From Chloroflexota bacterium (lineage in GTDB: Bacteria; Chloroflexota; Anaerolineae; Anaerolineales; UBA11858), in the NCBI GenBank assembly GCA_016865865.1, contig VGOC01000027.1:1-35252 (forward strand): a stretch of 35,252 bases of DNA. The letters are read 5' to 3'. The notes under the pieces are model-generated. The model was not told where the DNA came from. It made no database searches and was given only the letters and a program-made list of their open reading frames with translations. This document shows, piece after piece, positions 1-32,982 of this stretch. The translations under genes were made by a program, and so were the position numbers. Positions within the stretch are counted from its first letter, which is position 1; the number at the start of each line of letters is the position of its first letter.

Positions 1-194
1 ACTACTGGATGAGTCATATCATCAAGCGCATCCATTCTGGCGAGGGCAGCGAATTCGATGTCGAATTGTTGCACAGCGTCGCCAGGCAAATCCAAAACAA
101 ATGTTTGTGCGCTCTGGGAGAATTCTCCATCCAGGCGGTGATGACGGGCATCGAGCGTTTTCCGCAGGATTTCGAGGCGACGGTACAGAACTGA
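1..194 (+). CDS. nuoF: NADH-quinone oxidoreductase subunit F, C-terminal end (5' truncated by window)
   Basis: Frame 3 reads YWMSHIIKRIHSGEGSEFDVELLHSVARQIQNKCLCALGEFSIQAVMTGIERF..., a NuoF C-terminal pattern; directly upstream of nuoG. Confidence 0.85.
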   Translation, partial: YWMSHIIKRIHSGEGSEFDVELLHSVARQIQNKCLCALGEFSIQAVMTGIERFPQDFEATVQN

Positions 195-200
195 TAATTT

Positions 201-261
201 ACCGCGGAGATCGCGGAGGCCGCAGAGATAACAACTCTGCGCACTCCGCGAACTCTGCGGT
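201..261. repeat. Quasi-palindrome of CGCGGAG/CGCAGAG words between nuoF and nuoG
   Basis: Left arm ACCGCGGAGATCGCGGAGGCCGCAGAG (201-227); reverse complement of 235-261 is ACCGCAGAGTTCGCGGAGTGCGCAGAG; 23/27 identical. Confidence 0.85.
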
Positions 262-288
262 TAGCCACACGTATCTCGTGGAGTTTCT

Positions 289-2712
289 ATGACAAAAGAA
301 GTCACATTAACCATCGACGGCAAGCAAGTCACTGTTCCAGAAGGCACGTTAGTGGTGGATGCGGCCAAGAAGATCGGCATTAACATCCCCGTCTTCTGCT
401 ATCACCCCAAAATGGAGCCAGTGGGCATGTGCCGCATGTGTCTGGTGGATATTGGCCGCCCGGTGATAGACCGCCAGACCAAACAGCCCGTGCTTGAAGA
501 GGATGGTTCTACTAAGATTCAGTTTGGAGGGAAACTGGAAACCGCATGCACGGTGCCCGTCTCCGAGGGGATGGTGGTCGAGGGGTTAAGCGAGAAAGTC
601 AAGCAGGGTCGTAAGGAGATCGTCGAATTCTTGTTGACCTCACACCCACTGGACTGCCCGATCTGCGACAAAGGGGGCGAGTGCCCGTTGCAAAACCTGA
701 CTATGGATCACGGCCCGGGGGAGAGCCGTTTCATCTACGATGACAAAATCCATTTCGACAAGAACGTGCCCCTGGGCGATCTGATCTGGCTGGATCGTGA
801 ACGTTGCATCCAATGCGCCCGTTGCATCCGCTTTCAGAGAGAAATCGCCGACGACGCGGTGCTGGAGTTCTTCCACCGCGGGCGGGCTACGGATATTATC
901 ACCAACTCGGAGCCGGGGTTCGACTCCTATTGGTCGGGCAACACAACCGATATTTGTCCCGTCGGCGCGCTGACCACGGCGGATTTCCGGTTTGGCGCGC
1001 GCCCCTGGGAATTGAAAAGCGCGGCCTCGATCTGCACACACTGCCCGGTAGGCTGCAACATGACCTACAACACCCGCCGCGAGGCCAAATCCGGCGGGGA
1101 TATCGTCATCAAACGGGCTATGCCGCGGCAGAACGAGTGGGTCAACGAGTTGTGGCTCTGTGATAAGGGCCGCTTTGCCTATCACTTCGCCGAGAACGAA
1201 AATCGTCTGACTCAACCGTTGATCCGCAAAGGCGGAAATCTGACTCCCACAAGCTGGGATGACGCCCTGGCATTGGTGGCAGATCAATTCAAGAACGCCG
1301 GAGAAAGTCTGTTGACCCTGGTGAGCGGGCGCCTGCCCAATGAGGATCTTTTCAATTTGAAGAAGCTCACGGATGGGCTTGGCGGAAAAGCCAGATTGCA
1401 CTCTTACATGGCCGGTGGCGATCTGGTCGCCCAGGTTGGTTTAAGCGAAGGTTCCAATCTGGCAGAGCTGGGCGAGGGGGATGTTATCGTCGTGGTTGCT
1501 TGCGACCTGGAGGAAGAAGCTCCGATTTGGTGGCTGCGGGTCAAGGCCACTGTTCAACGTGGGGCCAAACTGATCGTTGCCAACCCGCGCCCTACCAAGC
1601 TGGATCGGTATGCCACAGAAATCATTCGCTATCAGTACGGAGAAGAGATCAGTGCTGTAAGACAGGTTGGCAACCTGTCCTACGCCGAGAACGCGGTCGT
1701 CTTTTTCGGCAGCGATGGCATCGGGTTGGAAACTTCTGCTGCGCTTGCGATAACATGCGCCAATCTGCTCATCCAGAGCGGCCATGCTGGCAAGCCAAAC
1801 AACGGCCTGGTCGGGGTGTGGCCGCGGGCTAACGAACAAGGCGCGTGGGATATGGGTTTCCGCCCCGGCGCAAACCTGGCTGAGGCGAAAGCGCTCTATA
1901 TCGTTGGCGCAAATCCGGTCGGCGACGATCCGGCGATTGCTGAGATCATCACTCAGGCCGATTTCGTGGTCGTTCAGGAGCTATTCCTGACCAAGACCGC
2001 TGAACTGGCCGATGTAGTGCTCCCTGCCCAGGCGCAGATCGAGCGCGAAGGCACTTACACCTCCGGCGAGCGGCGCGTACAGCGTTTCTACCCTGTTGTA
2101 CTACCCAAAGTCGATACCCGCCCCGACTTCGACATCGCTGCCCAGATTGGCGCCAAAGTCGGCGTGGAACTCAAAGGGCGTTTCCCCTCCCTGGTGATGT
2201 CCCAAATTTGCGCTGAGGTCCCTGGCTACGAGAGCATAACTTACCAGAGATTAGCCGAGGTCACTGAACAATGGCCAATCGTTGGGCGTGGCGATCTCTA
2301 TTATGGTGGTACAAGCTATGAGAATAAACAAGGCCTGGGGATTCAGTTGCACTCCCAACGTGGTTTTGGTACTTCCAAAATCTCGAACTACGAACTTCCC
2401 AAAGGTGAAGTTATCGCCGTGCCCATCACATTGTTGTACGACCGCGGGAGCATGATCATCCCCTCGGAAGTGCTGCACCCCCGAATTCCAGAGCCGTATA
2501 TCCTGGTCAACCCTCAGGATTCCCTGACGCTCAAAACCACGGACGGCATGATGGTGGGCATCAGCATCAACGGCGGCGAATCCAGCAATATTGTCGTCCG
2601 GGAAGATGAGAATGTGCCGCAAGGTTTCGCCCTCATCCCCCGCAGCATGGGTGTGCCTATTGATAAACCGAGACAATTCGAGATTCGCATCGCCGAAGCT
2701 GCAATGGCATAA
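289..2712 (+). CDS. nuoG: NADH-quinone oxidoreductase subunit G
   Basis: N-terminal 2Fe-2S ferredoxin domain (CYHPKMEPVGMCRMCLV), CPICDKGGECPLQ, CIQCARCIRFQ, CTHCPVGC, molybdopterin oxidoreductase body. Confidence 0.97.
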   Translation: MTKEVTLTIDGKQVTVPEGTLVVDAAKKIGINIPVFCYHPKMEPVGMCRMCLVDIGRPVIDRQTKQPVLEEDGSTKIQFGGKLETACTVPVSEGMVVEGLSEKVKQGRKEIVEFLLTSHPLDCPICDKGGECPLQNLTMDHGPGESRFIYDDKIHFDKNVPLGDLIWLDRERCIQCARCIRFQREIADDAVLEFFHRGRATDIITNSEPGFDSYWSGNTTDICPVGALTTADFRFGARPWELKSAASICTHCPVGCNMTYNTRREAKSGGDIVIKRAMPRQNEWVNELWLCDKGRFAYHFAENENRLTQPLIRKGGNLTPTSWDDALALVADQFKNAGESLLTLVSGRLPNEDLFNLKKLTDGLGGKARLHSYMAGGDLVAQVGLSEGSNLAELGEGDVIVVVACDLEEEAPIWWLRVKATVQRGAKLIVANPRPTKLDRYATEIIRYQYGEEISAVRQVGNLSYAENAVVFFGSDGIGLETSAALAITCANLLIQSGHAGKPNNGLVGVWPRANEQGAWDMGFRPGANLAEAKALYIVGANPVGDDPAIAEIITQADFVVVQELFLTKTAELADVVLPAQAQIEREGTYTSGERRVQRFYPVVLPKVDTRPDFDIAAQIGAKVGVELKGRFPSLVMSQICAEVPGYESITYQRLAEVTEQWPIVGRGDLYYGGTSYENKQGLGIQLHSQRGFGTSKISNYELPKGEVIAVPITLLYDRGSMIIPSEVLHPRIPEPYILVNPQDSLTLKTTDGMMVGISINGGESSNIVVREDENVPQGFALIPRSMGVPIDKPRQFEIRIAEAAMA
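1657..1683. repeat. REP-like palindrome GTAAGACAGGTT-GGC-AACCTGTCCTAC inside nuoG
   Basis: 12-nt arms with one mismatch, 3-nt loop; encodes in-frame ..AVRQVGNLSYA.. in NuoG. Confidence 0.8.
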
Positions 2713-2746
2713 TTATGTAAAAACGTTCAACGTTTTGAGGTAACTT

Positions 2747-3748
2747 ATGGAACCAGCATTAATCATCGAATGGATCATCAAATCTGTCATCATACTCCTG
2801 ATAGGAGTAATCGGCACTTTTTATGGAACCCTATTCGAACGGAAGGTATTGGCCCGTATTCAGGTACGCATTGGTCCTAACCGGGCAGGCCCCGCGGGCA
2901 TCTTTCAACCTGTGGCAGATGGCATCAAATTGATCTTCAAAGAAGAGTTGATCCCTGCACAGGCCGACAAGCTGATGTTCATCCTGGCGCCAATCATCAC
3001 CGTGCTGCCTGCACTGATCATTTGGGCCGTGATCCCCTGGGGAAGCCAGATTGTCATCGCCGGACGAGAGATCAAGCTCTATCTGGCTGATGTCAACATC
3101 GGTGTATTGTATTTGACCGCCGTGGCATCTATCGCGGTTTATGGGATCGTCATCGCGGGATGGTCTTCGAACAACAAATATGCTCTTTTGGGTGGTCTGC
3201 GCTCTTCAGCTCAAATGGTCAGCTATGAATTGGCTTTAGGTCTGTCACTCATTGGCCCAATCATGCTGACCGGATCGATGAGCCTGGTCGATATCGTCGA
3301 AGCTCAAAGCAAAGTTTGGTATGTTATCCCACAGTTTGTAGCCTTTATTATCTTCATAATCACTGGCCTGGCTGAGATCAACCGCTCGCCCTTCGACATG
3401 CCCGAGGCTGAACAGGAGTTGACCGCCGGCTATCATGCTGAATATTCCGGCATGAAATACGCCCTTTTCATGATGGCGGAATACATCAAGATGATCGTCA
3501 TATCGGCTATTGCTGCCACGTTGTTCTTGGGAGGTTATCGGCTGCCCTTCATCGATATCCCTGCATTCCTGGAACCCCTGGTTTTCTTCATCAAAATCTT
3601 GATCCTGCTCTACTCAATCGTTTGGGTGCGGGCAACTTTCCCCCGCTTCCGCTACGACCGCCTGATGGCCTTTGGCTGGAAAATCCTGTTACCCTTATCC
3701 CTGGCAAATGTTTTCGTGACTGCCATAATACTGGTGCTTAAAGGGTAG
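2747..3748 (+). CDS. nuoH: NADH-quinone oxidoreductase subunit H
   Basis: Multi-TM protein with ERKVLARIQVRIGPNRAGPAGIFQPVADGIKLIFKEE and SPFDMPEAEQELTAGYHAEYSGMKYALF. Confidence 0.97.
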   Translation: MEPALIIEWIIKSVIILLIGVIGTFYGTLFERKVLARIQVRIGPNRAGPAGIFQPVADGIKLIFKEELIPAQADKLMFILAPIITVLPALIIWAVIPWGSQIVIAGREIKLYLADVNIGVLYLTAVASIAVYGIVIAGWSSNNKYALLGGLRSSAQMVSYELALGLSLIGPIMLTGSMSLVDIVEAQSKVWYVIPQFVAFIIFIITGLAEINRSPFDMPEAEQELTAGYHAEYSGMKYALFMMAEYIKMIVISAIAATLFLGGYRLPFIDIPAFLEPLVFFIKILILLYSIVWVRATFPRFRYDRLMAFGWKILLPLSLANVFVTAIILVLKG

Positions 3749-3778
3749 CAGATCGCGGATAAACAAAGGAGACAATCC

Positions 3779-4303
3779 ATGGCGTTCCCAGAACGAGCCA
3801 ATGCTCATGAATTAATCAAAGGGTTGTGGATCACCTTCAAATCCATGTTCGAAAAGCCGGTGACCATCCAATATCCGGAAGTCAAACGACCTGTCAAGGC
3901 GCGCTTCCGCGGCCGTCATGTTCTCAACCGTTATGAAAACGGCCTCGAGAAGTGCATTGGATGCGCGCTCTGCGCAGCAGCCTGCCCGGCGAATGCTATC
4001 TTCGTCGAAGCCTCAGAGAATACCGATGATGAGCGTTATGCTCCCGGGGAGCGCTACGCCAGCACATACGAGATCAACCTGCTGCGCTGCATCTACTGTG
4101 GATTTTGTGAGGATTCCTGCCCCACAGAGGCGATTACGCTCGAGGACAATTACGAGTTATCTTTCGACAGCCGCTTCGGTGCAATCTACACAAAAGAGAG
4201 GCTGCTCGTCCCTGTGCCTGAGAATGGCAAGCCAACCCCGCAAGCCGTCCAGCCGGGGATATTCACCCGCTCCGTGCCTGTGATGGCGGACCCGGTGGAT
4301 TAG
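3779..4303 (+). CDS. nuoI: NADH-quinone oxidoreductase subunit I
   Basis: Two 4Fe-4S motifs CIGCALCAAACPANAI and CIYCGFCEDSCPTEAI. Confidence 0.96.
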   Translation: MAFPERANAHELIKGLWITFKSMFEKPVTIQYPEVKRPVKARFRGRHVLNRYENGLEKCIGCALCAAACPANAIFVEASENTDDERYAPGERYASTYEINLLRCIYCGFCEDSCPTEAITLEDNYELSFDSRFGAIYTKERLLVPVPENGKPTPQAVQPGIFTRSVPVMADPVD

Positions 4304-4346
4304 ATTTCTGGATGTTGGATATTAGATATTGGATATTCATTGGTAA
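4304..4346. repeat. Low-complexity TGGATATTAGATATTGGATATT direct-repeat spacer between nuoI and nuoJ
   Basis: Reads ggatgttggatattagatattggatattcattgg. Confidence 0.6.
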
Positions 4347-4352
4347 CTGACG

Positions 4353-4865
4353 ATGACACCTGAATTGATCACCTTCATCTTTCTCGCCTTGATTGCTGTG
4401 GCCTCGGGACTGGGGATGCTCTTCAGCCGCAACGCCGTTTATTCTGCTATTTACTTGATCATCAATTTCGTCACCGTGGCCGTCTTCTACTTGCTATTAG
4501 GTGGAGCGTTCATCGCCGTCAGCCAGGTAGCTGTTTACGCCGGCGCGATCATGGTGCTTTTCTTGTTCGTGATCATGCTCCTGGGCGCAGACAGACTGGG
4601 CGAAAGCAAGACCCTGGCCTGGCAACGTCCCCTGGCGATCATCCTGGCTATAGGATTGATCGCCGAGACCTTATTCGTGCTGTTCTTCCAGGCAAGCGAT
4701 CTGGTTGCAGTACAGACCCTACCCGAGGGCTTTGGCAGCCCGGCGTCGGTTGGCAACACACTGTTCAGAGAATACTTGTTGCCCTTCGAAGTAACCTCGG
4801 TGCTGCTTTTGGTGGCAATGATCGGTGCGATTGTTTTGACGAGGAGAGAGAAAACGCAGTCGTGA
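4353..4865 (+). CDS. nuoJ: NADH-quinone oxidoreductase subunit J
   Basis: [52 protein letters not shown]. Confidence 0.96.
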
Positions 4866-4942
4866 AACGTGATTTTCGCAGCAGGAGTTCGTCTTTCACG
4901 CTTCACTCATTACGTTTTACGCATTACGTTCTACACTTTACG
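4860..4942. repeat. CGTGAAACGTGA / TTTCACGCTTCAC / ATTACGTTTTACG word-repeat region between nuoJ and nuoK
   Basis: cgtgaaacgtga on the left; tttcacgcttcactcattacgttttacgcattacgttctacactttacg on the right. Confidence 0.65.
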
Positions 4943-4951
4943 GAGAAAACT

Positions 4952-5254
4952 ATGCTCCCAGTAACCTATTATGTAGGATTATCCGCAGTATTATTCGCCA
5001 TCGGCGCGCTGGGCGTACTGATTCGGCGGAACGCCATCATCATCTTCATGTCCATCGAACTGATGCTCAACGCCGCCAACCTGGCTTTCGTAGCCTTCGC
5101 CCGCGAATACGGGGCGCTCAGCGGCCAGATTTTCGTCTTCTTCGTGATGACAGTAGCCGCCGCAGAAGTAGCCGTCGGCCTGGCGTTGATCGTGGCTATT
5201 TTTCGCACCAAGCAAAGCATTGATGTGGATCAGATGAGCAGTCTTAAAGGGTAA
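4952..5254 (+). CDS. nuoK: NADH-quinone oxidoreductase subunit K
   Basis: [52 protein letters not shown] is open back to a GTG at 4862 but the conserved start is 4952. Confidence 0.95.
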
Positions 5255-5370
5255 TTGGGGATTGGTAGATTGGTAAATTGGGAATTAGTAGATTGGTTAC
5301 CAGGAAAGGATTTCCCCAATCTACCAATCTACCAGCTACCAACCTACCAGCTACCAGCTACCAATCTACC
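5255..5370. repeat. ATTGGTAGATTGGTA / TACCAATCTACCAGC tandem-word quasi-palindrome between nuoK and nuoL
   Basis: Left ttggggattggtagattggtaaattgggaattagtagattggt; right ccccaatctaccaatctaccagctaccaacctaccagctaccagctaccaatctacc. Confidence 0.85.
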
Positions 5371-5395
5371 GCCATACCAAGAGAGACCAAGAATT

Positions 5396-7513
5396 ATGTT
5401 ACTCAGCGAAACCATATCGAACACGCCCAACTTCTTCTACCTGGCCCCCTGGGTAGTCTTTTTCCCAGTCATCGGGCTGTTGATCAACATTATTTTCGGT
5501 GGTCGTTTCAGCGAGAAAGTTATCGGAACTGTCGCTAGCGTCGCCTCAGGGCTGACCTTCGTGGTTGCCGCGTTGATGGTGCTGTCGCTGCGCGCACACC
5601 CTGAAGGCGCTACCATCCCCCTGGCAGAATGGATCACCATCGGAGAACTGCAATTGGATTGGGCCTTCCGCGTGGACACACTCTCGGTCACGATGATGAT
5701 GGTGGTTGGCGGAGTTGGCACCCTGATCCATATCTACGCCATCGGCTACATGCATGAGGATGTACAGTACAAGAAAGACCCCAAACGATACCGGCGCTTC
5801 TTCGTCTTCTTCAACCTGTTCATCGCCGCCATGATGATCCTGGTCAGCGGAGATAATTATCTTATGCTCTTTATCGGTTGGGAGGGCGTTGGGCTGTGCT
5901 CCTTCTTGCTGATCGGTTTCTGGTACGAGATGGACACGCTAGCCCGGCCCAGCACCGCCAACGCCATGGCTGCCAAGAAAGCCTTCGTCACCAACCGCGT
6001 CGGCGACTTCGGTTTCTTGATCGCCGGCATGATGATGTTCTGGACGTTCAAGAGCGTGCAGTTCGATAACGTCTTCCTGGCCGCCGAACACATCGCCGAG
6101 AATCAACCCGGGATCATCCTTGCAATCACCCTGTTCATGCTGCTGGGTGTGGCCGGGAAGTCGGCGCAGATCCCACTCTATGTCTGGCTGCCTGACGCCA
6201 TGGCCGGCCCGACCCCGGTTTCGGCGCTGATCCATGCCGCGACTATGGTCACGGCGGGTGTTTATCTGGTGGCGCGCTCGGCGCCGCTCTACTCGCTGGT
6301 ACCGCAGGCGCAGGGCGTTGTAGCCCTGGTCGGCGGGGCGACGGCGCTGTTCGCGGCCACGATTGCCGTGGGCCAATACGACATCAAGAAGGTCCTGGCC
6401 TACTCGACAATCTCGCAGCTTGGCTTCATGGTCGCCGCGGTCGGGATGGGCGCTTTCGTGGCCGGGATGTTCCACCTGGTGACGCATGCTTTCTTCAAGG
6501 CGCTGCTCTTCCTCTCAGCAGGTTCAGTGATCCTGGGCGTCGAGCGCGGGCATCATCACGCTGCACATAAACACCACAGGCGTGGCGATCACCATGGGGA
6601 AGCAGATTTCGATCCCGGCGATATGCGTAATATGGGCGGGATGCGCAAGACCATGCCGGTCACTTTCTGGCTATACGTCATCGGCGCTCTGGCCCTGGCA
6701 GGCATCTTCCCCCTGGCTGGCTTCTGGTCGAAGGACGAGATTCTGGCCGAAGCCACGGCCTTGAACTTCACCGTCTATATTCTCCTGGCGGTTGCGGCTT
6801 TTTTCACCGCCTTCTACATGGGCCGACAAATCTGGATGGTCTTCTTCGGACAACCGAAACACGAAGCCGCCGGGCACGCTGAAGAGAGTCCACTTGTGAT
6901 CACAGTACCCCTGATGATCCTGGCTGCGCTCTCGATTTTGGGCGGCGCGCTCAACTTGCCAGGCGTGCATACCTTTACGGAGTGGCTGGAACACACCTTC
7001 GAGGCTTTCGAAGTGCATGTGCACGTCGGGGAGTTCAACATCATCGTAGCAATCACTTCAACGATCTTGGCCTTGGTCGCCATCGGCCTTTCCTGGTTGC
7101 TCTACGGGCGTAGAACCGTCTCCAGGGATCAGCCAGACCCGCTCAAACGGATTCTCGGGCCCATCTTCGTTGGCATGGAGAACAAATGGTGGATTGATGA
7201 GCTTTATTGGGCAGTCATCCTCAATCCCTATGTCGCCCTGGCGCGTTTCACTGCAGATGTGATTGACGGGCGTTTCTGGCATGACTGGTTCCACGACAAA
7301 GTCATCGCCGGAACATACCAATGGCTCAGCAAAACCTTCCTGGACGCCTGGTTCGACCAGCGCGGCATTGATGGCTTCGCCAACGGCCTGGCTCAGGCTG
7401 TCAAAGAACTGGCCCAACGCCTGCGCGGCATCCAAACCGGCTTCGTGCGCAACTACGCCCTGTCGGTTTTCATCGGCGTGGTTGTCATTCTTGGATACTT
7501 AATATTGCAGTAG
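5396..7513 (+). CDS. nuoL: NADH-quinone oxidoreductase subunit L
   Basis: Proton-translocating quinone oxidoreductase motifs (LFIGWEGVGLCSFLLIGFW, SAQIPLYVWLPDAMAGPTPVSALIHAATMVTAGVYL). Probable ATG at 5396; ORF open to 5255. Confidence 0.96.
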   Translation: MLLSETISNTPNFFYLAPWVVFFPVIGLLINIIFGGRFSEKVIGTVASVASGLTFVVAALMVLSLRAHPEGATIPLAEWITIGELQLDWAFRVDTLSVTMMMVVGGVGTLIHIYAIGYMHEDVQYKKDPKRYRRFFVFFNLFIAAMMILVSGDNYLMLFIGWEGVGLCSFLLIGFWYEMDTLARPSTANAMAAKKAFVTNRVGDFGFLIAGMMMFWTFKSVQFDNVFLAAEHIAENQPGIILAITLFMLLGVAGKSAQIPLYVWLPDAMAGPTPVSALIHAATMVTAGVYLVARSAPLYSLVPQAQGVVALVGGATALFAATIAVGQYDIKKVLAYSTISQLGFMVAAVGMGAFVAGMFHLVTHAFFKALLFLSAGSVILGVERGHHHAAHKHHRRGDHHGEADFDPGDMRNMGGMRKTMPVTFWLYVIGALALAGIFPLAGFWSKDEILAEATALNFTVYILLAVAAFFTAFYMGRQIWMVFFGQPKHEAAGHAEESPLVITVPLMILAALSILGGALNLPGVHTFTEWLEHTFEAFEVHVHVGEFNIIVAITSTILALVAIGLSWLLYGRRTVSRDQPDPLKRILGPIFVGMENKWWIDELYWAVILNPYVALARFTADVIDGRFWHDWFHDKVIAGTYQWLSKTFLDAWFDQRGIDGFANGLAQAVKELAQRLRGIQTGFVRNYALSVFIGVVVILGYLILQ

Positions 7514-7636
7514 ATAGTAACTACTCAGCCAAACGGAGAAATTCCCGAAAAAAGGGTGTGCGCAGGGGGCGTAGCCCCCTGCGCACACCCTTTTTTCGGG
7601 TAAATCCGTTCGATGGCTGAGCAGTTACAGTAGATA
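7509..7636. mobile_element. Putative MITE-like palindromic element (7517-7628) flanked by 8-bp direct repeats AGTAGATA
   Basis: Outer arms GTAACTACTCAGCCA / TGGCTGAGCAGTTAC (one mismatch); inner perfect 27-bp inverted repeat 7544-7570 / 7574-7600 with loop GTA; AGTAGATA at 7509-7516 and 7629-7636. Confidence 0.75.
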
Positions 7637-7643
7637 AAAGTAT

Positions 7644-7753
7644 TTCACCGCGAAGACGCGAAGAACGCAAAGGGTTCGAAATAGTTCATTGCGCAAGAAA
7701 AAAATCTTCGCACTCGGCCGCAGGCCCGCATAGCGTGGCGTCTTTGCAGTGAA
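7644..7753. repeat. CGCGAAGACGCGAAGAACGC quasi-palindrome between nuoL and nuoM
   Basis: Left end TTCACCGCGAAGACGC; reverse complement of right end TTCACTGCAAAGACGC. Confidence 0.7.
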
Positions 7754-7762
7754 TTTTGGATT

Positions 7763-7847
7763 ATCAGTAGATCACGAAAAGGATCATAAGCCCGTCCCCG
7801 GGCGACCCGATGACGGGTCTTTGATCCTGGTTTCGTGAAGTGCTGAT
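7763..7847. repeat. Palindromic element, copy A of a GGATC-AAGCCCGTCC-CGGGCG-CCC family
   Basis: Core 7781-7827 ggatcataagcccgtccccgggcgacccgatgacgggtctttgatcc closely matches 18608-18654; outer arms atcag..cacgaaa / tttcgtg..ctgat. Confidence 0.75.
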
Positions 7848-7869
7848 TATTGATGGACGAGGATATATT

Positions 7870-9399
7870 ATGAACCTAGTTTTGCATCCCCTTACCCTGG
7901 TGACTTTCTTCCCCCTGTTGGGCGTGCTGGTTTTACTGTTCTTTCAACCGGAACGCAAGAACGCCCAACGATGGACGGCGCTGATCACCTCCTTGATTAC
8001 CTTCGGCATCTCGCTGTGGCTGCTGGCAGATTTCGATGCCAAAAACCCAGATTTGCAGATGACCATCAACCTGCCCTGGATTCAGGTAGCCGGCTGGAAT
8101 ATCAGCTATGCCATGGGCGTGGACGGCCTGAGCATCCTGCTGGTGCTGCTGACCACCTTCCTGACGCCGATCTCTATTCTATCGACCTGGACGGCTGTCG
8201 AAGAGCGGGTCAAAGATTTCATGCTCTTCTTCCTGCTGTTGGAAGTGGGCATGACCGGTGTCTTCCTGGCCCAGGATCTGTTCCTGTTCTACATCTTCTG
8301 GGAATTTACCCTGGTGCCGATGTACTTCCTGATCGGCATTTGGGGCGGCCCCAACCGCATGTACGCGGCGATCAAGTTCTTCTTGTACACCATGGCCGGC
8401 TCACTGTTGATGCTGTTGGCCATCCTGTGGTTAGGCATCTACCAGAACACCTTCTCCGTGCCGGAACTGATCGCGAGGGGTGGCATTCCGGCAAATATTC
8501 AATTATGGCTCTTCCTGGCCTTTGCCGCCGCCTTCGCCATCAAAGTGCCCATGTGGCCGCTGCACTCGTGGCTCCCGGATGCGCACGTAGAAGCGCCTAC
8601 CGCCGGTTCGGTGATCCTGGCGGGCGTATTGCTGAAGATGGGCACCTACGGCTTCGTGCGGTTCAATATCCCGCTCTTCCCGGCCGCTGCGGTGAAAGCC
8701 GCCCCCTGGATGGCGCTGCTCGCCGTCATCGGCATCATCTACGGCGCGGCGGTCTCTTACGCACAGAAAGACATCAAGAAACTGGTCGCCTACTCCTCGG
8801 TCAGTCACCTGGGCTTCGTGATGCTGGGCCTGTTTGCCCTGAACCCCCAGGGCATCCAGGGCGGCATCTTGCAGATGATCAACCACGGCTTGAGCACAGG
8901 CGCATTGTTCCTCCTGGTGGGCATGATCTACGAACAAACCCATACCCGCGATTTCGACGTGTACGGCGGTCTGTGGAAATTGATGCCAGTCTACGGCACG
9001 TTGACCCTGATCGTAGCGCTGTCCTCGATGGGTCTGCCCGGCCTGAACGGCTTCGTCGGCGAGTTCACCATCCTGTTAGGCGCTTTCGGCTCCAAGGCCA
9101 TCGGCTCTCCCTGGTTCGCGGGATTATCCGCCATCGGCGTGATCCTGGCGGCGGTCTACATGCTGTACATGTTCCAGAAGATGTTCCTGGGACCGCAGGG
9201 TTCCGTCGTCGCAGAAGTGGAGAAACACGGCCACGGCATCAAAGACCTGAACTGGCGTGAGATCATTACCCTGGTGCCCATCCTGGTATTCATCTTCTGG
9301 ATCGGCCTGTATCCCAAGCCTTTCTTCGCCCTGATGGCGCCCGCCGTTGACAAGCTGGTGGCTGCGGTGCAGATGGCAGCAAATGTAGCAATGCATTAA
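7870..9399 (+). CDS. nuoM: NADH-quinone oxidoreductase subunit M
   Basis: FYIFWEFTLVPMYFLIGIWGG, KVPMWPLHSWLPDAHVEAPTAGSVILAGVLLKMGTYG; start M at 7870. Confidence 0.96.
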   Translation: MNLVLHPLTLVTFFPLLGVLVLLFFQPERKNAQRWTALITSLITFGISLWLLADFDAKNPDLQMTINLPWIQVAGWNISYAMGVDGLSILLVLLTTFLTPISILSTWTAVEERVKDFMLFFLLLEVGMTGVFLAQDLFLFYIFWEFTLVPMYFLIGIWGGPNRMYAAIKFFLYTMAGSLLMLLAILWLGIYQNTFSVPELIARGGIPANIQLWLFLAFAAAFAIKVPMWPLHSWLPDAHVEAPTAGSVILAGVLLKMGTYGFVRFNIPLFPAAAVKAAPWMALLAVIGIIYGAAVSYAQKDIKKLVAYSSVSHLGFVMLGLFALNPQGIQGGILQMINHGLSTGALFLLVGMIYEQTHTRDFDVYGGLWKLMPVYGTLTLIVALSSMGLPGLNGFVGEFTILLGAFGSKAIGSPWFAGLSAIGVILAAVYMLYMFQKMFLGPQGSVVAEVEKHGHGIKDLNWREIITLVPILVFIFWIGLYPKPFFALMAPAVDKLVAAVQMAANVAMH

Positions 9400-9406
9400 A
9401 ATACGG

Positions 9407-9691
9407 ATGAGAATTCGCTATTACCTCGATCCTGATACCGGCACACACCACATCCACAACCATCATGTTGATGAAAACGAAGTCGAGGATGTCCTCGATA
9501 ATCCGGGAGAAGACCGTCCCGGCCGTGAAGGGTCAAGAATAGCTATTGGCCAAACACGAGCTGGGCGCTACTTGCGAGTCATATATGTGTTAGATCCAGA
9601 ACCAGATAGTGTCTTTGTCATAACTGCCTATGAATTGCGAGGCAAACCATTGACGGCCTATCGGCGACGCAAAAGGCGAAGGAGTAAATAA
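9407..9691 (+). CDS. Small DUF4258/RelE-like putative toxin
   Basis: 94 aa; HHVDENEVEDVLDNP...GRYLRVIYVLDPEPDSVFVITAYELRGKPLTAYRRRKRRR resembles DUF4258-type toxins; TAATG overlap with next gene. Confidence 0.65.
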   Translation: MRIRYYLDPDTGTHHIHNHHVDENEVEDVLDNPGEDRPGREGSRIAIGQTRAGRYLRVIYVLDPEPDSVFVITAYELRGKPLTAYRRRKRRRSK

Positions 9692-31635: not shown

Positions 31636-32982
31636 CTACTCCGTCTCGAACTGCACCTCCACGCTCATCCCTGCGCGCAGGCCGGGGGGCGGCGCGTCCA
31701 ACTCGATGGTCGTGGTGTAGACCACATCCCCTCCTAGTGTTTCGGCCAGGGGCGCGATATTGCTGACCCGCCCACTGAATTGCTCCCCCAGGGCTTTGAC
31801 GAACACCATCACCGATTGCCCGATGGCGATTTTGGGTAGGTCGCGCTCGCTCAGGTCGCTGGTTTCCACATGCAGATTTTGAATGTCAGCTAATACCAGG
31901 ATCGGCTGCCCCGGTGTGACCCACTCACCGCTGCTGATATTCACCTGGGCGACCACGCCCGCGAACGGCGCTGCCAGGGTGAGCTGTTCGAGAGCGGCCT
32001 GAGCAGCTTCGAGCTGCGTGCGGGCGTTCTTCAGGCGCGCTTCCGCCAGGCGCACCTGATCGGGGTCTGGGCCGGCGCTGAGGATGTCGTAATCGCGCTG
32101 CGCTTTGGCCAGTTGCGCCTGCGCTAATGCCAAATCAGCCTCCGCTTGATTCTGATCTATCGAGTTGGTCGTCCCGATCAGATGATTGTAAGTGCGTACC
32201 GTGGCGTCGTAATCTTTCTGTGCCTGAGCCAGCCTACTGAGCATGGCCGCCCGTTCCACGTTCGTTTCAGGTTTGTTCTCGAAAGGCTCGAAATCATCGC
32301 GGGCCTTGTCCAGTTTATCCTGGGCCAGGATCATGTTGGCATAGGCAGTGTCTATATCTACCTGCGGGGCGGCAGCCTGCATGTTGCTGAGGGCACGCTC
32401 GGCGTCGCGCAACGCATCCTGATAATCGGCAATCGCCTTGAGCGCCTGGGCAAGCTGCACGTCCATATCTTTGGAGAGGGCGTCGAGCGCCTGCTGGGCT
32501 TGCTCCAGCTCGAACTCTGCCGCGCTGACCGCCGCTCCGAGGCTCTCCTGACCCTCGAGCTGCGCCAAGACCTGCCCTTCTGCCACGGCTTCGCCAACGC
32601 TGACATTCACAGCGGCCACCTTCCCACCCAGCGTGAATACCAGCCGGGCTTCCTGCGCTGGAGTCATGCTCCCTGAAGCAACTACAGCCCCGCTATCTAT
32701 CTGTGGCGAGGTCGGGAGGGCCGAAGACTCTTGATCCAACACGATGGTGGGCAGCGGGGTGGGCGTAGCCGGGGTAAATACAGTACATCCGGCCAATACA
32801 AGCAGGGAGATCAAAAACAGAAGTGTTCCTGGATAAACGATGAAAGAAATCGTACACGGATTTAACGGATTCCCGCGGGTAGATTTTATATTTCTGCTTT
32901 TTATCCGTGCCAATCCGCGTTCATCCGTGTACGAATTCCCATCCCGCTTGATGGGAAACAAGTGTAATATTTCGAAATTCAT
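31636..32982 (-). CDS. HlyD/RND-type periplasmic adaptor lipoprotein (MacA-like)
   Basis: Lipobox [29 protein letters not shown], long coiled coil, [35 protein letters not shown] at 32982 overlaps the ATPase stop. Confidence 0.88.
32851..32933. repeat. CGTACACGGATTTAACGGATT / AATCCGCGTTCATCCGTGTACG quasi-palindrome in the 5' part of the adaptor ORF
   Basis: Left cgtacacggatttaacggattcccgcgg; right reverse complement cgtacacggatgaacgcggattggcacggat. Confidence 0.8.

Follow-up and report, generated by a model that had tools for sequence, protein, structure and literature searches.

What are the repeated short words that fill the spacers of a bacterial complex I operon, and how did they get there? 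The question is raised by the nuo operon of a member of the Chloroflexota, which lies in a stretch of DNA that we call the window: an entire contig of 35,252 bases (G000:C27) from a 3.25-Mb draft genome. Several spacers of this operon carry word dyads, in which tandem words in one arm face their reverse complements in the other. The original prediction, made from the sequence of the window, held that the words were mutually unrelated, that a common mechanism, such as hairpin-templated slippage or action on an RNA or transposase substrate, might have generated them, and that no named class of element was known to cover them. We compared the window's own genome (G000) with relatives labeled G001 to G022; L-numbers denote individual loci. 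It is probable, in our view, that the dyads, similar to miniature inverted-repeat transposable elements (MITEs), are gene-less, non-autonomous relatives of small mobile cassettes that form hairpins and come in two classes. One class would be built around an S23 gene, the other around a GxxExxY gene.

The dyads exceed chance. We folded each one as RNA and compared it with 200 dinucleotide shuffles. For the nuoF–nuoG, nuoK–nuoL and nuoL–nuoM dyads and for the dyad at 32851, not one of the 200 shuffles folds as well. The nuoJ–nuoK dyad, which had been predicted alongside them, is weak: 23 of its 200 shuffles fold as well, and its hairpin is no better than theirs. The nuoI–nuoJ spacer does contain direct words only, and the view that one architecture is realized with many words, rather than by copies of one element, also holds. 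None of the window dyads contains an open reading frame (ORF). In 435 kb of the window's own genome there are 56 tandem 7-mers that have one or more reverse complements nearby, compared to 7–10 in dinucleotide shuffles and 12–18 in order-3 Markov sequence. When two or more nearby reverse complements are required, the count is 15, where the matched shuffles give 0–1. Seven of these 15 word dyads lie outside predicted genes, when 12% would be expected to (p = 0.001; the gene mask used is crude, and its errors work against such an excess). For some word dyads there are true dispersed copies too: the same genome has three near-identical 105-nt CACAGAT dyads with common flanks (L055:284, L057:4264 and L063:1202).

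The words of the window also occur around genes. In the same genome, the nuoK–nuoL word ATTGGTAG is the arm word of an S23 cassette (L271), and in a BLAST search with this locus its arm matches both arms of the nuoK–nuoL dyad. Matched by word, GGATATT from the nuoI–nuoJ spacer is the arm word of another S23 cassette (L291, on G000:C24), and ACACGGATT from the dyad at 32851 is that of a GxxExxY cassette (L290, on G000:C63). For the nuoJ–nuoK word CGTGAAA, the counterpart is an S23 cassette with GTGAAACGTGAAACGTG arms in the family member G014 (L353). CGCGGAG and CGCGAAG, from the nuoF–nuoG and nuoL–nuoM dyads, form the arms of GxxExxY genes in relatives (L192, L272 and L282). Hence, each word of the window has a gene-bearing counterpart. 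The products of L203, L271 and L291 match PF05635 and TIGR02436, the S23 four-helix bundle, which also shows a faint match to Avd, a protein of diversity-generating retroelements (E = 2e-5). GxxExxY belongs to the PD-(D/E)XK nuclease family, and the D and E-x-K residues are kept in 18 aligned members. The Avd match and the D..ExK residues are in keeping with nucleic-acid roles but prove nothing.

In the relatives, S23 or intervening-sequence protein (IVP) genes (identified by TIGR02436 and PF05635) and GxxExxY genes (TIGR04256 and PF13366) have inverted word arrays on both sides, often with a word specific to the gene. We aligned the 250 nt upstream of each gene with the reverse complement of the 250 nt downstream and set the threshold at the 99th percentile of 500 random ORFs. 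Paired arms above this threshold flank 54 of 71 S23 genes and 18 of 30 GxxExxY genes. The median arm score for S23 is 16.0; pairing the arms of different genes reduces it to 8.5 and abolishes the signal. The words themselves follow two grammars, one for each gene family, and are thus not mutually unrelated as had been proposed. CRCNRAK occurs at least twice in 15 of 18 GxxExxY arms and in none of 57 S23 arms (Fisher p = 4e-13). The CRCNRAK words of GxxExxY genes have a period of 9–10, whereas the period is 7–8 in 53 of the 57 paired S23 cassettes. The purine-rich arm is mostly the 5′ arm in both gene families (86% and 83%); we give this bias no weight because it is similar in non-word hairpins (74%). 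No third family of loop genes was found when ORFs of 70–450 codons between word arms were scanned at diverse loci. The idea that word similarity tracks protein relatedness at all depths had to be rejected; for S23 it holds only above about 55% identity.

According to our model, a full cassette would consist of a 5′ arm of tandem words, a gene of about 120 codons and a 3′ arm of the reverse-complement words. Class 1 would combine words of period 7–8 with the four-helix-bundle gene of the S23/23S-rRNA-IVP family, and class 2 would combine CRCNRAK words of period 9–10 with the GxxExxY PD-(D/E)XK gene and its conserved D..ExK. We infer that each protein recognizes its own word class and promotes movement: S23 may bind nucleic acids in the manner of Avd, and GxxExxY would act as a nuclease. 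Gene-less forms could arise by internal deletion, move in trans, or both. Insertion between the genes of an operon may be tolerated because the transcript would fold the insert away, and the arrays would afterwards change by repeat slippage.

Orthologous sites are found filled, empty and swapped. The spacer of L290 contains the GxxExxY cassette in G000, G003 and G001. In G002 only the beginning of the ORF is left between two arms (an internal deletion); G004 has a gene-less dyad of a different word in this spacer, and G022 an S23 cassette with GAATTGCG words. At L271, G000 and G003 have the cassette in the spacer, which is short and empty in G001, G004 and G022. Similar states are found within the nuo operon, whose gene order is kept in 20 relatives (located with nuoL as query). 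At nuoK–nuoL, a homologous ATTGGTA dyad is present in the window and in G003; the spacer is short and dyad-free in G001, G004 and G006, and that of G002 is without the ATTGGTA word. At nuoL–nuoM, related CGCRRAG dyads occur in G000, G003 and G001, and an empty 27-nt spacer in G002. At nuoI–nuoJ, G000 has GGATATT words, whereas its congeners G001 and G003 have AACAGTAATCAG / ACTGATT dyads. Distant members of the order have words of their own in nuo spacers (TCGATAT, AATTACCC, CCTAAC). Spacer limits in the relatives are approximate for nuoF–nuoG; the other spacers are unaffected. This gain, loss and change suggests that the nuo spacers evolve partly by simple descent and partly by word switching. 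The word turnover that the original prediction called for is therefore seen, at nuoI–nuoJ and in the three different elements of the L290 spacer, but the nuoK–nuoL and nuoL–nuoM dyads are shared with G003 by plain descent.

The abundance of a word follows the presence of its cassette. RATTGGTARATTGG has 17 copies in G000, 40 in G003, 39 in G011, 44 in G014 and 14 in G019, and 0–1 in 36 other genomes; reversed-pattern controls give zero. By a strict count, based on 92 cassettes in 31 genomes examined, an S23 cassette with the RATTGGTARATTGG word is present in three of the five word-rich genomes and in none of the 36 others (p = 9e-4).

Word arrays and word-armed genes are also spread across phyla. 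The 24-nt CGCRRAG pattern CGCRRAGACGCRRAGAACGCRRAG, for which about 0.1 chance matches are expected in the 257 Gb scanned, occurs on at least 119 contigs, some of them from isolates, and in more than 15 phyla. Among the matches listed are Pseudomonadota, Bacteroidota, Planctomycetota, Cyanobacteriota, Acidobacteriota, Chloroflexota, Verrucomicrobiota, Spirochaetota and others, with the isolates Microcoleus vaginatus HSN003, Allochromatium warmingii and Chloroflexus islandicus; a GxxExxY gene lies beside the array at 5 of 119 loci, again among the matches listed. On viral contigs, 27 stretches contain the pattern as well. GxxExxY genes have CRCRGAG arms in Bacteroides finegoldii, Gemmatirosa and Bernardetia, a short ACACGGATT pair in Treponema saccharophilum, one arm in Sphingomonas, and no CRCNRAK arms in Persicobacter and Prevotella. 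S23 genes have paired word arms in 10 of 11 cases on viral contigs and on plasmids of Pseudanabaena and Anabaena sp. 90 (between cas6 and cas4), Picosynechococcus (cas10–cmr3), Calothrix brevissima, Geminocystis and Gemmatirosa (Gemmatimonadota). The S23 gene of Calothrix sp. PCC 7716 is without paired arms, and in Nostoc C052 words are present on just one side of the gene. The word-armed S23 genes L376, L378 and L380, which lie within the CRISPR operons (cas6–cas4, cas10–cmr3) of cyanobacterial plasmids, may be misread as CRISPR accessory genes.

Several observations weigh against the idea that the dyads are gene-less mobile cassettes. First, neither S23 nor GxxExxY is, to our knowledge, a known transposase. 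Second, direct movement was not observed, and mobility is what the comparison of sequences suggests. Third, no defined element terminus is seen, and no target-site duplication is apparent at the two compared sites (L290 and L271), where the flanks have diverged. Fourth, paired arms are not detectable for 17 of 71 S23 genes and 12 of 30 GxxExxY genes. Fifth, the case for co-inheritance of protein and word comes from pairs with more than about 55% identity, for which orthology is possible. Sixth, G019 has 14 RATTGGTARATTGG matches and no cassette with this word was found there; the cassette match in G011 is weaker and fails the strict count. Finally, at 13 ATTGGTAG loci the gene-less dyads differ in array length, and their loops are unrelated. 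Hence, dyads of the same word are not simple copies of one master; either the arrays are remodeled fast, or gene-less forms are made otherwise than by copying.

One could also argue that the dyads are an older, independent class of repeats, and that S23 and GxxExxY are selfish genes that invade dyad loops. Gene-less dyads far outnumber genes (G000 has 17 ATTGGTAG pattern matches and one such cassette), the L290 spacer holds different elements in different relatives, and a PD-(D/E)XK nuclease is among the presumed invaders. Nevertheless, homing of this kind seems unlikely to us. Each gene family keeps its own word grammar and word abundance follows cassette presence, which together fit a cassette that is inherited as a unit. 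The sole transition state that we saw, in G002, is a decayed cassette and not a loaded dyad.

A local origin of the dyads, by hairpin-templated slippage or quasipalindrome correction and without any mobile element, is less likely still. Slippage is plausible for any tandem array, arrays of the same word vary in length and loop, and many abut or overlap the upstream stop codon. However, the same words occur in many spacers of one genome and across phyla, and for words shared by unrelated lineages local slippage is not a ready explanation. The class of word also depends on the gene carried. If words were copied from the upstream gene end, as nuoI (GGATTAG/GGATATT) suggests by eye, gene-end words should be enriched in the arrays; the excess is not significant by permutation (7 compared to 4.3 ± 1.9 permuted, and 0 compared to 1.1 at k = 8). 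Concerted evolution of the two arms was rejected too, since the similarity of arms within a locus does not exceed that between species. The slippage origin offered by the original prediction thus finds no support in either comparison.

It is very improbable that the dyads are selected operon RNA structures (processing sites, attenuators or terminators) with no link to mobile elements. What speaks for this reading is their placement between the genes of a single operon and their good folding. Congeners, however, are without dyads at the same spacers, the structure at a given spacer is not conserved across the order, and in many phyla these words are found next to genes of all sorts. In the window, an Rfam search returned two tRNAs only and no family matching the dyads, and a search for terminators (a G+C-rich stem followed by a T run) gave no match that coincides with them. 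Repetitive extragenic palindromic (REP) sequences and their hairpin-forming pairs (REPINs), moved by the Y1 transposase RAYT, are likewise dispersed intergenic palindromes, and Y1 transposases are present in 20 of 21 genomes examined, but we regard this explanation as hardly credible because the copies of a REP are nearly identical and share a single palindrome, whereas words and loops differ here, no palindrome sequence is conserved, and the bracketed genes are S23 or GxxExxY and not Y1.

Contrary to what had been supposed, the dyads do have a named relative: the intervening sequence (IVS) of 23S rRNA. In Coxiella burnetii, this IVS has a terminal stem of 28 bp and contains an S23 ORF that is directly preceded by tandem GACAGAT heptamers (PMC4990558). 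IVSs are regarded as selfish, and their patchy distribution suggests horizontal transfer; their origin and mobility were called unclear after 25 years, and the authors mention that the ORF might serve mobility (PMC4990558). The likeness is close: a four-helix-bundle ORF between stem-forming inverted repeats, with purine-rich tandem heptamers before it. However, the IVS sits in 23S rRNA and is excised by RNase III, whereas the cassettes and their gene-less forms occupy protein-operon spacers genome-wide, use many words and include a second class with a nuclease gene. We do not class the dyads and cassettes as IVSs because the window dyads lie in nuo spacers and the cassettes examined lie between protein genes. 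Instead, insertion of a class-1 cassette into rRNA would have produced the 23S IVS.

Other known repeats share part of the architecture. The cyanobacterial short tandemly repeated repetitive sequences (STRRs) are intergenic heptamer repeats. Geobacter metallireducens has intergenic heptanucleotide elements (PMC2700814), and TAACTGA heptamers occur in Beggiatoaceae, Cyanobacteria and Bacteroidetes, where horizontal spread is suspected with no mechanism given and where S23 or four-helix-bundle proteins are not mentioned (PMC4679880). All are intergenic tandem 7-nt words from unrelated phyla that sometimes overlap gene ends; they differ in that they have been described as direct repeats, of a single word or a handful of words. 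The dyads resemble MITEs in that gene-less inverted-repeat elements share ends with a gene-bearing element, with one internal-deletion intermediate (G002), and in their presence or absence at orthologous sites. Unlike MITEs, they have no known transposase, no visible target duplication and no common loop, and their ends are variable tandem words and not a fixed terminal sequence. Borg tandem repeats are direct repeats in giant archaeal elements; going by the abstract, they evolve fast and arise independently in one replicon type, and as described there they are without paired arms or a loop gene (PMC9879509). Within open-access full texts, no paper joins IVSs, heptamer repeats and word-armed cassettes, GxxExxY is nowhere named as an element gene (its mentions are in unrelated papers), and CGCAGAG-type words are printed in no relevant paper. 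Our literature search covered these texts only, so an earlier description elsewhere is possible.

A broader claim would be that very widespread mobile elements end in element-specific tandem word arrays and are mobilized by S23 and GxxExxY proteins that are not transposases. We propose this tentatively, and it could well turn out to be too broad. If it were true, word-ended elements would jointly account for the 23S IVS and the heptamer repeats of cyanobacteria and Beggiatoa, as well as for a large share of the repeats in operon spacers throughout the bacterial phyla. The gene-less dyads and cassettes may show where bacterial rRNA inserts come from, and their plan would link the origin of the 23S IVS with the spread of heptamer repeats (PMC4990558, PMC4679880). 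S23 and GxxExxY, very common proteins without known function, would gain a testable role, for which many natural pairs of filled and empty sites are available outside pathogens. The cassettes would also explain recurrent small orphan genes annotated inside operons, here the cas operons and fabD–fabG.

Table 1. Features of the window, with the RNA folding z-score (z) of each dyad or hairpin.
Feature	Position	Strand	Content
nuoF–nuoG dyad	201..261	.	CGCGGAG..CGCGGAG..CGCAGAG / CTCTGCG..CTCCGCG..CTCTGCG; GxxExxY-class word (CRCNRAK, period 9); z −8.7
nuoG	289..2712	+	context; order conserved in relatives
nuoI	3779..4303	+	context; order conserved in relatives
nuoI–nuoJ direct words	4304..4346	.	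GGATATT, one-armed; S23-class word (period 7); z −1.6
nuoJ	4353..4865	+	context; stop codon (4863–4865) inside first word of nuoJ–nuoK dyad
nuoJ–nuoK dyad	4861..4942	.	CGTGAAA / TTTTACG; S23-class word; imperfect hairpin; z −1.2
nuoK	4952..5254	+	context; order conserved in relatives
nuoK–nuoL dyad	5255..5370	.	ATTGGTAG words; S23-class (period 8); z −4.8
nuoL	5396..7513	+	context; query for orthologous operons
Palindromic element, nuoL–nuoM spacer	7520..7632		27-bp perfect inner stem; z −13.4
nuoL–nuoM dyad	7644..7753	.	CGCGAAGA.CGCGAAG.AACGCAAAG / GCGTCTTTGCAGTGAA; GxxExxY-class word; z −3.4
Second long hairpin, nuoL–nuoM spacer	7771..7850		z −5.1
nuoM	7870..9399	+	context; order conserved in relatives
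Small gene between nuoM and nuoN	9407..9691		DUF4258/BrnT-like product (read by eye only)
Dyad at 32851	32851..32933	.	TACACGGATTTAACGGATT / AATCCGCGTTCATCCGTGTA; GxxExxY-class word; z −7.4

The nuo spacers also contain other features. The near-perfect palindromic element between nuoL and nuoM, which is adjoined by a second long hairpin, has about 190 near-identical copies in its own genome and none in eight relatives, five of them congeneric. It is a recent, genome-specific MITE-like burst and different in kind from the word dyads. In addition to the small gene that follows nuoM, the nuoJ–nuoK spacer of the congener G003 (L033) is 503 nt long and contains what reads in translation as a HicA/HicB-like gene pair. 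Small genes have also been taken up by other nuo-operon spacers in some relatives.

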